NCBI RefSeq assembly: GCF_003171515.1
Contig: NC_089396.1
Coordinates: 1,240,001-1,304,000, forward strand
Direction: 5' to 3'
DNA: 64,000 nucleotides
From: Pyrenophora tritici-repentis
Lineage: Eukaryota; Ascomycota; Dothideomycetes; Pleosporales; Pleosporaceae
The translations under genes were made by a program, and so were the position numbers. The notes under the pieces are model-generated. The model made no database searches, was not told where the DNA came from, and saw nothing but the letters and a program-made list of their open reading frames with translations. Of this stretch, positions 49,980 through 61,893 are shown in pieces; position 1 is the first letter of the stretch; each line of letters starts with the position of its first letter.

Positions 49980-50149
49980 GCCCGGCTAGCTCAATCGGTA
50001 GAGCGTGAGACTCTTAGTCATCACGTCCTAGCAGACACGATTATTCAGTACATCTCAAGGTTGTGGGTATGTCTTCTCTCTCATACTTCTTATATATTAT
50101 CTCAGGACATCCCGCTAACCCTTAATAGGTTCGACCCCCACGTCGGGCT
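49980..50149 (+). tRNA. tRNA-Lys(CUU) with anticodon-loop intron and a second T-arm intron
   Basis: The acceptor stem GCCCGGC (49980-49986) pairs with GTCGGGC (50142-50148), and the discriminator is T as in yeast tRNA-Lys(CUU). The D arm is GCTC/GAGC. Anticodon stem TGAGA/TCTCA carries loop CTCTTA, anticodon CTT. A 35-nt intron (50017-50051) sits just 3' of position 37, the canonical place for tRNA endonuclease. The T stem 5' half, GTGGG at 50063-50067, is separated from the TTCGACC loop by a 62-nt insert at 50067-50128. The insert begins GTATGT, has CGCTAAC near its end, and closes TTAATAG. Excising exactly GT...AG gives GTGG+GTTCGACCCCCAC, a perfect T arm. The A box (TAGCTCAATCGG) and B box (GGTTCGACCCC) are intact in the DNA. 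Confidence 0.85.
50067..50128 (+). other. Spliceosomal-like 62-nt intron inside the tRNA T arm
   Basis: Ends are GTATGT and TAG. A pyrimidine-rich middle and a GCTAAC branch sequence about 10 nt before the AG match fungal pre-mRNA introns, including those of neighbouring genes here. Its length is typical for fungal mRNA introns. Its removal restores the tRNA exactly. It lies far from the anticodon, so the ordinary tRNA endonuclease site does not apply. Confidence 0.65.
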
Positions 50150-50157
50150 ATGCTTTC

Positions 50158-50168
50158 TTTTTCTTTTT
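50158..50168 (+). terminator. Polymerase III terminator of the tRNA gene
   Basis: Two T5 runs separated by one C begin nine bases after the mature tRNA end, the usual pol III stop signal on the sense strand. Confidence 0.75.
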
Positions 50169-54815: not shown

Positions 54816-56922
54816 ACGTGTCCGTGCGCGTGATGCGCGGATTCGCGTGATGCGCGGGGAACACCATATCCACTACTTCAAAAATGAAGCTATTAAGCCA
54901 CGTATATAAGCTGTTATTATACGAATTTATAGAGGGGGAGTAATTAGATGCTTGCGATCAACTTGTACTATCTATATTTTGATGGGAGGTTGACGTTGCG
55001 GCCACGTGATGTGAGCTTTGATGGAGGAGCTGGAGGCTCTTCTTGAACTTGAGCACCAGCGCGAGCAGCCTCAACGCGTTTTTGACGCTTGTTGTTCGAT
55101 GAGGTAGCTGCTGAAGCTCTCCTCTTTCCCTTTTGGGGTAGTTGTATAGCTTTAGCAGCGTCTCTCTCCTCCTTCTGGCGCGCGCGTTCAGCTGCTTTCT
55201 CAGCTCGCTCAAGCTCCCTCATCTCCTTGAGTCTCTGCCTCTCCACACGCCTCTCCTCGAGCTCATCTTGACGCTGCAGTCGAGCCTCCTCGCGCTGCTT
55301 CTTGGACCGTGCTTTTTGGAGTTTCTCCTCCGTCTCATCTCGCTCCCGTACTGCTTCTCTAGCTCGAGCCTCACGCAGCTTGCGAGGAGACCAGAAGACA
55401 GAGCCACCGTGATACTCCTGGCGCTGTTGAAGGTCAAGAGCTTTGCCCTTCTTCCTGTGCTTCTTTTTATGTTGAAGAGCCTCCTTTAAGCCCTCGTTCT
55501 CATGCTTTAAAAGCTCATACTGCACAGAGAGATGGTGAACGCTTGAGCGCAGCTTTCTTGCCTCATACTGATGGCTATCATTAACAGCAGCTCGTACTAG
55601 CCGATCGAGCTTTCTCCAGTCATGATCAGAGAGCCCTGACGATGAGCTTCTCTCAGCTTCTGGCGTGCTAGCAAATCTACGAAGGATAACGTTGGCATCC
55701 ATCGGCCAGATCCCAGTGGCTTCGAAGGCCTTCAATATGAGGCTCTCTGTGAAGGAGGATATCCAGGCGCTCCAGAAGAGCGGGAAGAAGTCCCCTTTCT
55801 TGATTGGAATAAGGCCTTGAGCCTTATGGAGATGGTTAGTGAGCTCGTTAGAGTAGGCTTGAGAGAGTGGCTTGAACAGCACTACATCTAGCGGCTGGAG
55901 CGTATGGGTCGAATGGGGAGGAAGGATCATGAGGAGGATCCTATGGCGATCGCAGTACTTAATAAACTCCATCGTGAGGTGAGATCCATGGCCATCAAGG
56001 ATGAGCAATCTCCATCTACCTGATCGTTGCTTTGTAGAGCGATCAAACACCTGCTCCAGCCAAGCTAGGCCTACGTTATCATTTGACCAGCCTGTTGGAG
56101 ATGATGAGACAAAGACCTCATGTTCTCCTGCCTTGATATCTTCTACCCAACTCGATCGTATAGCTCCATTTTTAGCTGCGTAGATAAGGGCTGGAGGCAG
56201 CGAGCTCCCATCAGCGCAGCAGCAGGCCAGGACTGTCAGAAACTCGCGTGATCCATCCTGGAGAGATGCTCGAACCTCCTTCTTCTCCCATTGACGCCTG
56301 CTGAATATCCTCTTACTTCTGCCTATCAAGCCAATTAAGAAGCCCTTCTCATCCATATTGTATATATCTCGAGCCTCTAGGTGATATTCGGTGATCTTTC
56401 GATGCAGCAGCTCGAAGTAGAGTCTATACTTTGACTCAGAATCAGCCAGGTGGCGCGTACGATCCATGGCGCTGGTCCACTTTGAGATGAGATGGATCTC
56501 GTGTCGGTTGATGAAGCGAGTAACCCAGCTCTCGCTGAGCTGCTGATGGGCTACTTCTGATGAGAAATTCCTGATCATCTCTCGTGTAGGAGGAATGCCT
56601 CGCTTTGTGAGCTTTTCGATATATCTCACAAGCTCTAGCTCTTGTTGTGGGTTGAGTTTCTGCTGGTTGAAGTTCTTGTCTCTTTCTGAGCTTGTCTGGC
56701 CCTGGTGCCTTCGGGTCAACGTAGATCTCACAACACCATGCTTAGCAGCAATTTTAGTATACGAGAACTGTTCTCCTGGCTCTAGATTTTCAATATCTTC
56801 AATCGCAGCTTGAATTGGGTCCATATTGGTGGAGTTAACGTGTGTTGAAGGTGAAGGGGTTTGACGTGTTTTGGTGTTCCCCGCGCATCACGCGAATCCG
56901 CGCATCACGCGCACGGACACGT
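54816..56922 (-). mobile_element. Intact Fot1/pogo-like (Tc1-mariner) DNA transposon
   Basis: 2107 bp bounded by perfect 51-bp terminal inverted repeats (54816-54866 and 56872-56922), flanked by TA on both sides, the Tc1/mariner/pogo target duplication. Each repeat holds a duplicated CGCGTGATGCGCGG block, a likely transposase binding site. It carries one uninterrupted transposase gene on the minus strand. It shows no sign of RIP. Confidence 0.92.
54968..56824 (-). CDS. Fot1/pogo-like DDE transposase
   Basis: 618 residues without a break. The N-terminus (AIEDIENLEPGEQFSYTKIAAKHGVVRSTLTRRHQG) is a helix-turn-helix of the psq/CENP-B type, followed by a second DNA-binding unit ending WVTRFINRHEI. 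The DDE catalytic core shows Asp in YNMDEKGF, Asp in LLILDGHGSH and a third acidic site at HTLQPLDVVLFKPL. The C-terminal about 150 residues are a highly charged coiled coil (REARAREAVRERDETEEKLQKARSK-like) ending in a basic tail. It cuts and pastes the element at TA sites in the nucleus. All motifs are present, so activity is plausible. Confidence 0.92.
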   Translation of the reverse strand: MDPIQAAIEDIENLEPGEQFSYTKIAAKHGVVRSTLTRRHQGQTSSERDKNFNQQKLNPQQELELVRYIEKLTKRGIPPTREMIRNFSSEVAHQQLSESWVTRFINRHEIHLISKWTSAMDRTRHLADSESKYRLYFELLHRKITEYHLEARDIYNMDEKGFLIGLIGRSKRIFSRRQWEKKEVRASLQDGSREFLTVLACCCADGSSLPPALIYAAKNGAIRSSWVEDIKAGEHEVFVSSSPTGWSNDNVGLAWLEQVFDRSTKQRSGRWRLLILDGHGSHLTMEFIKYCDRHRILLMILPPHSTHTLQPLDVVLFKPLSQAYSNELTNHLHKAQGLIPIKKGDFFPLFWSAWISSFTESLILKAFEATGIWPMDANVILRRFASTPEAERSSSSGLSDHDWRKLDRLVRAAVNDSHQYEARKLRSSVHHLSVQYELLKHENEGLKEALQHKKKHRKKGKALDLQQRQEYHGGSVFWSPRKLREARAREAVRERDETEEKLQKARSKKQREEARLQRQDELEERRVERQRLKEMRELERAEKAAERARQKEERDAAKAIQLPQKGKRRASAATSSNNKRQKRVEAARAGAQVQEEPPAPPSKLTSRGRNVNLPSKYR

Positions 56923-57023: not shown

Positions 57024-59021
57024 ATGGCTCCGATTGATGAAGCGATTGCAGATTTAGAATCGCGCGATTCAGGAGAGAAATTCACATTAAAAGAAGTTGC
57101 TGAAAAATAGGGGGTTAACCGCTCAACGCTAGGGCGAAGATGGAGGCGCGTGACAGGGCCTAGGAGCGATGGATACGCTCAGCAGCAAGCTATTAGCCCA
57201 CAACAAGAGTTAGAGCTTGTACGATATATCACTAAGCTCACTAAGTAAGGCCTACCTCCTACAAGCGAGATGATCAGGAATTTTTTATTAGAAGTAGCCT
57301 ATCAGCAGCTCAGCGAGAGCTAGGTTACTCGCTTTATTAACCAACACGAGATCTATCTTATCTCGAAGTGGACCACCGCCATAGATTGTACGCGCCACCT
57401 AGCTAATTCTAAGTCAAAGTATAGACTCTACTTCGAGCTGCTGCACTAGAAGATCACTAAATATCACTTTAAGGCTCGAGATATATACAATATAGATAAG
57501 AAGGGCTTCTTAATTAGCTTAATAGGCAGAAGTAAGAGGATATTTAGCAGGCGTTAATAGAAGAAGAAGGAGGTTTAAGCATCTCTCTAGGATAGATCAC
57601 GCGAGTTTCTAACAGTCCTAGCCTGCTGCTGCGCTAATAGGAGCTCGCTACCTCTAGCCCTTATCTACGCAGCTAAAAATAGAGCTATACGATTAAGTTA
57701 AGTAGAGGATATTAAAGTAGGAGAATATAAAGTCTTTGTCTTATTATCTCTAATAGGCTAGTTAAATAATAACGTAGGCCTAGCTTAGCTAGAGCAGGTG
57801 TTTAATCGCTATACAAAGCAGTAATTAGGGAGATAGCAATTACTTATCCTTAATAGCTATAGATCTTATGTTACGATAGAGTTTATCGACTACTGTGATT
57901 GCTATAAGATTCTCCTTATAATTCTCCCCCCCCTATTTAACTTACACGCTCTAGCTGCTTAATGTAGTGCTATTTAAGCTACTCTCTTATGTGAGGGATC
58001 GATCAAGAAAGATTGGATTTGACAAGATACAAGCTATCGAGCTATCGAGCTATCTACGTTGTGAGCCCGAACTTATGCTGTGGGCGCCAAGGCGCTAGTC
58101 CGATAAGATAAGGATCTTATCGATATGGGGGGCCATGGGCCGAGCGAGTCTATGGATCCGTAACATCTTAAGCCTACTCTAACGAGCTTACTAACTATCT
58201 CTATAAGGCTTAAGGCCTTATTCTAATTAAGAAAGAAGACTTCTTCCTACTCTTCCAGAGCGCCTAGATATCCTCCTTTATAGAGAGCCTTATATTAAAG
58301 GCCTTCGAAGCTACTAGGATCTAGCTAATAGATGCTAACGTTATTCTTCGTAGATTTGCTAGCACGCTAGAAGCTAAGAGAAGCTTATTGTTAGGGCTCT
58401 CTAATTATAACTAGAGAAAGCTTAATTAGTTAGTACGAGCTGCTATTAATAATAGCTATTAGTATAAGGCAAGAAAGCTACGCTTAAGCGTTCACTATCT
58501 CTCTGTATAGTATAAGCTTTTAAAGTATAAGAATAAGGGCTTAAAGGAGGCTCTTTAACATAAAAAGAAGCATAAGAAGAAGGGCAAAGCTCTTAACCTT
58601 TAACAGCGCCAGGAGTATCACGGTGGCTCTGTCTTCTAGTCTCCTCGCAAGCTGCGTGAGGCTCGAGCTGGAGTAGCAGTACGGGAGCAAGATGAGACGG
58701 AGGAGACACTCCAAAAAGCACGGTCCAAGAAGCAGCGCGAGGAGGCTCGACTGCAGCGTCAAAATGAGCTCGAGGAGAGGCGTGTGGAGAGGCAGAGACT
58801 CAAGGAGATGAGGGAGCTTGAGCGAGCTAAGAAAGCAGCTGAACGCGCGCGCTAGAAGGAGGAGAGAGACGCTGCTAAAGCTATACAACTACCCTAAAAG
58901 GGAAAGAGGAGAGCTTCAGCAGCTACCTCATCGAACAACAAGCGTTAAAAACGCGTTGAGGCTACTCGCGCTGGTGCTCAAGTTCAAGAAGAGCCTCCAG
59001 CTCCTCCACCAAAGCTCACAT
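57024..59021 (+). pseudogene. RIP-inactivated pogo-like transposase
   Basis: It begins MAPIDEAIADLESRDSGEKF, aligned to the first element's transposase, and reaches a stop at the position of its conserved His. From there to about 58600 there are dozens of TAG/TAA codons where the intact copy has CAG, CAA or TGG, and nearly all differences are C-to-T or G-to-A: the RIP signature. From about 58600 to 59021 the copy differs from the intact one by only a handful of transitions. It is further split by the solo LTR at 57990-58165. Confidence 0.85.
57990..58165. mobile_element. Solo LTR with TCTTA target duplication
   Basis: 176 bp starting TGTGAGGGATC and ending GGATCCGTAACA (TG...CA), flanked by TCTTA at 57985-57989 and 58166-58170. 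Removing it and one TCTTA rejoins the transposase frame at the aligned LSQAYS position. The 5-bp duplication and TG/CA ends point to a solo retrotransposon LTR. A MITE is the alternative, since the two ends are weakly inverted. It keeps CpA sites, so it probably arrived after the RIP of its host element. Confidence 0.7.
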
Positions 59022-59022
59022 A

Positions 59023-61893
59023 GTGGCGTATAAGCGGCATATCCAGGAAAAGTCGGACTATGGCCAATCCCCCTCAGAAGCCACCCGTGCGTTCCTAGCT
59101 ACGGTACGAAAAGCCAAGAGAACGTACTGGCAGCAGCGCATAGACGGCTGTAATAACGACAAAGATCTATACAAGCTAGTAGGCTGGCATAAACTATCAT
59201 TCGACCAACGGGACACCCCACTTGTAATCGAAGGTAGGACAATCACAGCACCACTCGAGAAAGCTGAGGCACTTAGAGAGGCAATCCTCGACCGTTTTTC
59301 GGCGGAGGACGACCTCCTAGAACCACCGCCTCTTGACAACGACCCGCAAACCACGCCACTACCATGGGACACATACATATCGATGGAGGAGACTGAACGC
59401 TACGTGATTGGAGTATCTAGCACCTCCCCAGGACCCGATCAGGTGACCGTCCGACTCCTAAAGGCATGCTGGGAACACATTAGACACCTAGTGCTAGGCA
59501 TCTACCGGGCGTGCATGGAACAAGGCCACTACCCAGCCGCCTGGAAGACGGTAGAAGTGGCCATGATACCCAAAGTCGGGAAGAAGGATAAGTCCTCACC
59601 CAGATCAATGAGACCAATTGCCCTATCGTCCTGTCTAGGGAAGGGACTCGAGCGTATCATAGCAAGGCGCATAGCACACACAGCTATGGCTTTTGACATC
59701 CTAAGCCCACAGCACGGTGGAGCGCTGCCAAAACGCTCTGCGATGGACCTGGCGACCGCATTCACACACGACGTGGAGATGGCTTGGTCAAGACACGAGC
59801 ATGTCTCTATGCTCACGTTAGACGTCCAAGGGGCGTTTGACGCGCTACTGAAAAACAGGCTACTACACCGAATGCGGCAACAAGGGTGGCCACCCCTACT
59901 CCGGAAATTTATCCAGAACTTCCTGTCGGAAAGGAGGGTGCGAGTACGCCTAGGCAATGTCACTACACCTGTACATCGAGTGGCCTGCGGCACCCCGCAG
60001 GGATCGCCGCTATCACCGGTCCTATACACCCTATACCTAGCTGAACTACTCAACCAGGACCGAAAACTCCGGTTCGGGTATGCCGACGACATCAACCTAT
60101 ACCGGGTCTCCCACTCTTTAGACGAGAACGTCGCACTGCTAGCAGAGGACCTCAAATCTATCAATGAATGGGGAGCTGCGAACAAGATCACGTTTGCACC
60201 AGAGAAACGGGAGCTGATCCACCTCACGCGCCAGAAAGGACTACATGCGCCGCCAATCCAATTGGAAGATCAAACAATTCACCCTATAGCCCCTGCGCAG
60301 GGGGAAGCCAGACAGCGCTGCGCTGGCTTGGGGTGTGGTTTGATAGGGGACTAACTTTCAAGAAGCACGTCGCAGAAAGGGCGGCGCAAGCTAGGAAAGT
60401 AGCGAACCATCTCCGGAGCCTCGCCAACACAGCCCACGGCCCTCCAGCAGGATCGCTACGCAAGGCAGCCATAACATGTATCCTGCCCATACTACTATAC
60501 GGAGCCGAAACATGGTACGAGGGCAGGACGAAGAACCCACGAATTGCAAGGGTTTCCCGTAAACCCACGGTCAGCACTAGGGTAGGCTGGCACCTAACCA
60601 CGATAGATCAGGCACTAGTAGCAGCCACGAAGGCAATCCTCCCTGCGTGGAGGACAACACCAAACGCAGTACTGCTAAGAGAAGCTGCGATGCCGTCGGC
60701 ACAGGTGGCGCTGGAGGAGGCTAAGCTCCGCTTTGCGGTTCACCTACGCACGATAGACGACAAGCACCCACTTACTAATAGAACTACACTGCCACTAGTC
60801 ATACGAGGACGCGCAGCGGGCAACCGACGGATACCAAGATCGAAGGTTCAGCGCGTAGCACAACTGCTACCCGCCACACCCCGAAACGTCCTAGCCAGCC
60901 CTCACTTTTCAGACGGGTCGAGGCAGGATCCAACGCAAGGGCAAGGAAAGGACATTGCTGCCCAGAATTTCACCATCTGGTGGGAGTCTCTTGGACAAGA
61001 GACAATCACTGTCTTCTCAGACGGGTCTGAACAACAAATCAACGGTACAAGGGTGGTCACTTACGGGTACGCTATATACCAGGGCCAGGCCGCCGTGGCG
61101 ACTGGACAAGGCTCACTAAATGCCCTTAGCCACGTCTTCGATGCGGAGGCTATAGGCGCATGCAGAGGACTCAAACACGCACTACAACTCTCACTGCCTA
61201 GCCAGAGGGAGATCGTACTTTGCATAGACAGCACTGCGGTAATATGGGGCATACGCGGAACCGCCCCTACCTCCTCCTAATAGGCGTTCCTCTAAATCTA
61301 TAGAGCTATAGAGGCCTACAACGTAAAAACGTGGTAGGCGCTAAGACATATAAAGATTGTTAGAAACGAACTCGCCGACTAGCTGGCTGACAACGAGGCT
61401 AAAGACCCGCACTAGCTATACGGCATAGCCGCCTCCCCTATAAGATCTAGTATACGAACAGTAGGCCGCCGCCTCCTCGAACATACAAGGGACACTTGGT
61501 GGAAGGATAAGAGCAGTAGGCTATCAGCATAGTACACGCAATAGCAGCTGCTATACGATACTAGGCGCACGCCCGCAGCGCTATAGCTACCCCGAAGGAT
61601 ACTTGCGAAAGTCCTTATGATACGCTCAACGCATAGCGACTTTAAATAGTACCACCGAAAATTCAACTACGAGGATACCTCGAAATGCCTATACGGCAGG
61701 CCTAAGACGCTAGAACACCTAGTGTTCTGCAAGAGAGCCACAACACACTTCAAGAAGTGGCCTCTACGCCCTATCGTGCCCCCTCGCACAAGACAGGAAG
61801 GCCTAGCGTACCTCGCGCAATTAATAGACTAGCCACAAGAGTTCAAGACCTTTGTGAAGGTAACGAACTCCTTCTATAACGAGTGATTTCTAT
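59023..61893 (+). pseudogene. LINE reverse transcriptase / RNase H, truncated and broken
   Basis: The frame is open from the very junction with no ATG (59023-60354). RT blocks are GPDQVTVRLLKACW, MIPKVGKKDKSSPRSMRPIAL, LTLDVQGAFDALLKN, GTPQGSPLSPVLY and the catalytic FGYADDINL. A frame change in the GGGGG run near 60300 moves coding to the overlapping frame ending at 61280 (LRWLGVWFDRGLTF onward). The RNase H domain shows FSDGSEQQ, DAEAIGACRG and CIDSTAVIWG with its acidic residues. From 61280 to about 61890 the remainder, including a terminal KCLYGRPKTLEHLVFC zinc-knuckle-like part, is full of TAG codons as after RIP. Confidence 0.85.

Follow-up and report, generated by a model that had tools for sequence, protein, structure and literature searches.

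Spliceosomal-type introns predicted in the T arm of at least six tRNA genes of Pyrenophora tritici-repentis

The standard teaching is that only the tRNA endonuclease deals with introns of nuclear tRNA genes, and introner-like elements are known from protein-coding genes. We know of no tRNA that is spliced by the spliceosome. An mRNA-type intron does occur in the U6 snRNA gene of Schizosaccharomyces pombe and, according to excerpts of one paper, is thought to stem from reverse splicing (PMC10484740). In the openly licensed literature, as represented by titles and abstract beginnings, we recognised no report of a nuclear tRNA gene with a spliceosomal intron. No word beginning with "spliceosom" occurs in the main text of a review of tRNA introns (PMC4090602), and the main text of two introner papers contains the word tRNA zero times. 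In this study, we analyzed a window of 64 kb (the whole stretch of DNA under study) of the P. tritici-repentis genome, in which a tRNA-Lys(CUU) gene had been predicted to carry such an intron. Judged from sequence comparison, the Lys insert is very probably a U2-type spliceosomal intron in a tRNA gene that is functional and transcribed by pol III. At least six such genes appear to be present in the genome.

The tRNA-Lys(CUU) gene and its two interruptions

Neither an ARAGORN scan nor Rfam at gathering scores reported a tRNA in the 64-kb window. The gene comprises the following features, with their basis in brackets:

49980..50149, + strand: nuclear tRNA-Lys(CUU) gene, whole (sequence, paralogue comparison, ARAGORN)
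49980..50016, + strand: exon 1, positions 1-37 with anticodon CTT (same in all five copies found)
49987..49998, + strand: A box (sequence)
50017..50051, + strand: canonical tRNA intron, 35 nt, after position 37 (ARAGORN; introns of 35-36 nt at the same place in four paralogues)
50052..50066, + strand: exon 2, through position 52, with GTGG at its end (copy comparison)
50067..50128, + strand: spliceosomal-type T-arm intron, 62 nt, between positions 52 and 53 (exact empty site in four paralogues)
50067..50072, + strand: 5' splice site GTATGT (sequence)
50113..50119, + strand: branch site CGCTAAC, with branch A at 50118, 10 nt from the intron end (sequence)
50126..50128, + strand: 3' splice site TAG, the final G shared with the B box (sequence)
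50128..50138, + strand: B box GGTTCGACCCC (sequence)
50129..50149, + strand: exon 3, remaining T arm and 3' strand of the acceptor stem (copy comparison)
50158..50168, + strand: oligo-T terminator of pol III type, TTTTTCTTTTT (sequence)

The coordinates in the original prediction are exact. The gene has a 35-nt anticodon-loop intron and a 62-nt insert at 50067-50128, and the former, separate from the T-arm insert, does sit at the canonical place between positions 37 and 38. The GTATGT donor, the CGCTAAC branch site about 10 nt upstream of the end, and the TAG acceptor ascribed to the insert are all present. As had been claimed, excision restores the T stem: with both introns removed, ARAGORN returned a 73-nt tRNA-Lys(CUU) with a 5-bp GTGGG/CCCAC stem. 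When long introns were allowed, ARAGORN proposed a single 92-nt intron in this gene, which was rejected because it breaks the T stem and because the paralogues separate two elements. At the DNA level, the Lys B box, (AG)GTTCGACC, is uninterrupted. The gene is flanked by ORFs for a P-type ATPase and a carboxylesterase that run on the opposite strand. Two neighboring proteins show 92% and 94% identity to Pyrenophora teres proteins. A Tc5/DDE_1 transposase ORF (54968-56887, - strand) and a reverse transcriptase ORF (58960-60354, + strand) were found ~5 to 9 kb from the Lys gene.

De novo prediction of mRNA introns from coding potential was too noisy as a yardstick and was replaced by spliced alignment to one homologous protein per gene, which yielded just four introns from two genes of the window (47, 69, 47, and 52 nt). 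Their donors are GTATGC, GTACGT, GTACGT, and GTAAGG, CTAAC occurs in three of the four, and all four end in CAG. The original statement that the insert has a length typical of mRNA introns here holds on this small sample, and the lengths of all six T-arm inserts found in the genome (53-65 nt) fall inside its range of 47-69 nt (n = 4 only). Two other classes were considered. Group I and group II introns possess a catalytic core and measure hundreds of nucleotides; the inserts measure just 53-65 nt, and the window, which covers the Lys insert only, gave no Rfam match to either class at gathering scores. The class of canonical tRNA introns, which lie between positions 37 and 38, was rejected for the T-arm inserts, as these follow positions 52 or 54 instead.

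T-arm inserts in further tRNA genes

The genome (40.9 Mb, 41 contigs) was surveyed with short patterns that place an acceptor beside the T loop, and the neighborhoods of matches were then read. The patterns gave 180 matches (84 + 26 + 64 + 6), of which 135 were read or scanned. For the pattern with 84 matches, these were 39 (the window's own, 8 taken singly, and 30 carrying a retrotransposon 13-mer), while the 45 unread ones comprise 43 with this 13-mer and 2 on contig C41; the remaining patterns were read completely (26/26, 64/64, and 6/6). All 26 matches to the GTTCAA variant of the T loop were inspected by eye, and none was tRNA-like. Since the patterns were no commoner than reversed controls, each case rests on individual reading of the place. 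It was a D-arm pattern that first brought up Leu(UAG), and a motif scan of 306,816 bases (overlapping loci counted twice) returned the same six genes. An Rfam tRNA list of 63 rows was also used; among its 33 rows without a locus, 10 were inspected and proved to be Ser, Arg, and Leu(CAG). Two T-stem matches, L107 and L114, were dropped for want of a CTRAY branch site, the former also lacking a donor motif. Because the survey sought only YAG acceptors adjoining GTTCGA, GTTCAA, or TCGA in the T arm, six genes is a lower bound. Three tRNA 5' pieces had no match in viral contigs, and among GTDB contigs, the one match was a tRNA-like stretch in a bacterial metagenome-assembled genome with no such insert.

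The survey also touched on repeats. In the pattern with 84 matches, 73 read CAGGTTCGATTCC, many of them paired ~5500 bp apart (G000 C1 and others, e.g., L042-L044), and the three such loci that were looked at share a common repeat edge; the family is apparently an LTR retrotransposon with a B-box-like sequence inside its LTR. Nineteen places had one identical Rfam tRNA score, and the four that were read (L193, L194, L196, and L197) are tRNA-Arg(TCT)-like with a common 3' flank, CACCGCTATAAT, perhaps a SINE-like family.

Besides Lys, five genes carry a T-arm insert. In Leu(UAA) and Arg(CCG), inserts of 55 and 57 nt follow position 52, as does the 62-nt Lys insert, and in Leu(UAG) and two Leu(AAG) genes, inserts of 53, 53, and 65 nt follow position 54. 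The original description of a single gene is thus right for Lys and falls short in extent, as no fewer than six genes carry inserts and these occupy two positions of the T arm. The five further inserts all read GTANGT..CTAAY..CAG; a GTRNGT-like donor and a YAG acceptor lie at the boundaries of all six, and each has a CTRAY branch site near the acceptor, whose branch A lies 10-18 nt before the insert ends. None of 200,000 mononucleotide-shuffled Lys inserts matched GTRNGT..CTRAY..YAG in a register compatible with the empty site, and 3 of 200,000 shuffled Leu(AAG) inserts showed the motifs. The stem GTGGG/CCCAC is common to all six genes. It is not sufficient for an insert, because Leu(CAG) and the insert-free copies of Lys and Leu(AAG) have the same stem uninterrupted.

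After removal of the inserts, ARAGORN recognised a tRNA in 6/6 genes, although the fit of Leu(UAA) is imperfect. Canonical introns were called in Lys, Arg, Leu(UAG), and Leu(AAG). Spliced Leu(UAA) was returned as a 94-nt tRNA with no canonical intron and a poor anticodon stem; we infer a canonical intron of 12 nt there. ARAGORN labels the intron-bearing form of this gene (L077, L186) "tRNA-Stop(tta)", and this spurious suppressor tRNA may be present in annotations. A copy of the 5' half of Leu(UAG), including the canonical intron (L109), lies ~10 kb from the full gene.

Runs of four or more T residues follow 6/6 genes, and TTTT is absent from all six T-arm introns, a weak signal (P = 0.012 in mono- and 0.166 in dinucleotide shuffles). 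Both observations fit transcription by pol III. The former also bears on the idea that longer pol II transcripts carry the embedded tRNA sequences and splice them, to which the normal coupling of spliceosomal splicing to pol II lends some appeal. The downstream T runs speak against it, as does the place of the Lys gene between opposite-strand ORFs with its own A box, B box, and T run, and we regard a pol II origin as exceedingly improbable. The original claim that the B box is intact in the DNA and completed by the acceptor G is borne out for Lys, and in the other position-52 genes, too, the B box is uninterrupted and the acceptor G rebuilds it. In the three position-54 genes, the B box is damaged in the DNA (CAGTCGA versus GGTTCGA).

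The tRNA endonuclease could itself remove the inserts if they were non-canonical tRNA introns cut via a bulge-helix-bulge (BHB) motif, as in archaea and the red alga Cyanidioschyzon merolae. Such introns at other tRNA positions are described for C. merolae (PMC4090602), and shifting the Arg(CCG) junctions by one base gave pairing scores of 3/4 (outer), 3/4 (core), and 4/4 (inner). The strict motif asks for 3-nt bulges at the two junctions, separated by a helix of 4 bp. A 4/4 core helix was found, however, in 0 of 15 registers of the six inserts (best, 3/4), which speaks against strict BHB sites only. Strict BHB motifs are not needed by canonical eukaryotic tRNA introns, and the test failed on its positive control, since the Lys intron in the anticodon loop scored just 3/4, 0/4, and 1/4. 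The spliceosome is favored because an endonuclease would not require GTANGT, CTAAY, and YAG, none of which a BHB model predicts and all of which are present in 6/6 inserts. Cleavage by the endonuclease at the T arm therefore appears extremely unlikely, and the spliceosome would be the simplest agent for removal of the inserts.

Empty sites and the need for removal

The Lys(CUU) family contains at least five copies according to a genome DNA query, and one of the five found carries the insert; the other four (L002-L005) do not. The exons of the insert-bearing copy are identical to those of each insert-free copy over 73/73 nt, so that the boundaries of the insert are fixed to within four possible registers. 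Leu(AAG) provides a second exact empty site: of four genes found, two carry a T-arm insert and two do not (L181, L182, L183, and L184 in all). In the insert-free genes, query positions 1-79 and 133-151 adjoin, and since these flanks are contiguous, a 53-nt GT..AG segment is missing exactly, with no duplicated bases. An empty site hence confirms the boundaries of two inserts, that of Lys and one of those in Leu(AAG); for the remaining four, they follow solely from restoration of the T arm. Between the two intron-bearing Leu(AAG) genes, the exons are the same (82/82 nt), while the canonical introns have diverged slightly and the T-arm introns strongly. Unchanged exons beside diverged introns are what purifying selection on a spliced product would predict, and gene conversion of the exons could contribute. 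A 3' trailer of ~40 nt ending in a T run is conserved across the four Leu(AAG) genes, with or without a T-arm intron.

Insert-free relatives have a second side. Lys and Leu(AAG) inserts occur in families with insert-free copies, so the bearers could be silent, and this counts against our preferred explanation. Silent or dead tRNA copies would harbor introns or look-alikes in redundant genes without anything being spliced, a situation compatible with the at least four insert-free Lys and at least two insert-free Leu(AAG) genes and with the damaged B box of the three position-54 genes. Against it stand the exons, identical to those of insert-free copies, the complete splice motifs in 6/6 inserts, and the fact that Leu(UAA) and Arg(CCG) were found solely in insert-bearing form, with TTA codons in use in genes. 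A degenerating gene among intact copies had been named in the original prediction as a sign against it; the four intact copies do exist, but the insert-bearing one shows no exon decay (73/73). We therefore judge silent copies very unlikely. An mRNA-type T-arm intron in a gene that would need both endonuclease and spliceosome, as first proposed from the Lys gene, now draws support from five more genes and from empty sites in two families.

Leu(UAA) bears on the need for removal in vivo. A whole-gene DNA query matched only itself in the genome; as a positive control, the same type of query recovered the insert-free Lys and Leu(AAG) copies. Five places matched a D-arm 15-mer with no more than one mismatch, namely, Leu(UAA), Leu(UAG), the truncated 5' half of Leu(UAG), and two places that were negative in ARAGORN. 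The single copy thus comes from searches that give a lower bound and cover leucine genes other than Leu(CAA). Under decoding rules, UUA is read only by Leu(UAA), and TTA codons were present in 4/4 Pfam-supported ORFs in which they were counted (6, 3, 2, and 4). Because the lone UUA reader carries the insert and TTA is used in genes, cells must excise this insert, provided that no second copy escaped the searches. Arg(CCG) was likewise found once, with the insert; its codon is readable by wobble.

Origin, processing and comparison with known systems

The inserts of Leu(UAA) and Arg(CCG) are alike beyond the splice motifs (0/1000 shuffles, z = 5.5, and 0/2000 shuffles). Lys and Arg inserts are weakly alike (15/1000 and 8/2000), and likeness is not significant for Lys versus Leu(UAA) (274/1000) or for any pair with a position-54 insert. 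Genome DNA queries built on the three position-52 genes, or on their inserts, gave one match each, the query itself, and also missed each other, so that diverged relatives are invisible to them; within this reach, the Lys insert does not recur elsewhere with other boundaries, another counter-sign named in the original prediction. The Leu(AAG) query found no insert copy beyond the second, diverged Leu(AAG) gene. Each position-54 insert (Leu(UAG) and both Leu(AAG)) has one register, compared with four registers at position 52, and the single register implies that no target duplication accompanied these inserts.

These data bear on the idea that the inserts are introner-like mobile introns, copies of a transposing family present also in protein genes; this is a question of origin and leaves room for removal by the spliceosome. 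Hallmarks of introner-like elements are numerous near-identical genomic copies and, in certain families only, target site duplications or terminal inverted repeats. Such elements occur in related Dothideomycetes (PMC4457414), and the clear likeness of the Leu(UAA) and Arg(CCG) inserts, with the weak one of Lys and Arg, would suit a mobile family. The queries returning no further copies, the dissimilarity of Lys and Leu(UAA) and of all position-54 pairs, and the lack of target duplication in the three position-54 inserts point the other way, and we consider introners an unlikely source. The introns may have been copied from one tRNA gene to another by way of their common T arm, or may stem from separate reverse-splicing events. 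Under our preferred explanation, spliceosomal introns in functional tRNA genes, they would have been gained in particular gene copies, those of Leu(UAA) and Arg(CCG) at least sharing an origin.

For processing, we propose that pol III would transcribe the whole tRNA gene and that the nuclear spliceosome would take out the T-arm intron, allowing the T arm and the tRNA fold to form. End processing and export would follow, and tRNA endonuclease and ligase would then remove the anticodon-loop intron. The folded tRNA body is recognised by both tRNA export and the endonuclease, and the T-arm intron would for this reason go first or early. A broader reading is that in this fungal lineage the spliceosome has become obligatory for tRNA maturation, being required for the only UUA reader and for much of the leucine set, and that a small intron family spread from one tRNA gene to the next, always at the same T-arm site, via shared T-arm homology, as a tRNA-specific form of intron gain; we see the chances for and against it as evenly balanced.

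Genes that depend on the endonuclease and the spliceosome together, including what is apparently the only UUA decoder, would link translation directly to the spliceosome and would show the spliceosome acting on pol III transcripts that are short and structured. Copies that share identical exons and differ in whether they have the intron would offer a clean system for the study of intron gain and of the order of tRNA processing. For annotation, a warning follows from ARAGORN missing or misnaming genes with T-arm introns.

Among described systems, the S. pombe U6 gene likewise has an mRNA-type intron in a pol III-transcribed non-coding gene. U6 is, however, a spliceosome component, whereas the hosts here are tRNAs of five isoacceptors that also bear anticodon-loop introns; the best U6 copy in the present genome has no intron. 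Dothideomycete introner-like elements are also recently gained spliceosomal introns in related fungi. Archaeal and C. merolae tRNA introns, too, lie outside the anticodon loop and can number several per gene, but those of C. merolae are BHB-recognised (PMC4090602), and the six inserts here have no full BHB core. Canonical eukaryotic introns after position 37 are present in the same genes (by inference in Leu(UAA)), and the T-arm inserts differ from them in position, GT..AG ends, and branch site. The GT-AG intron as such is a known kind; a tRNA as its host, and the double dependence on endonuclease and spliceosome that would result, are new to us.
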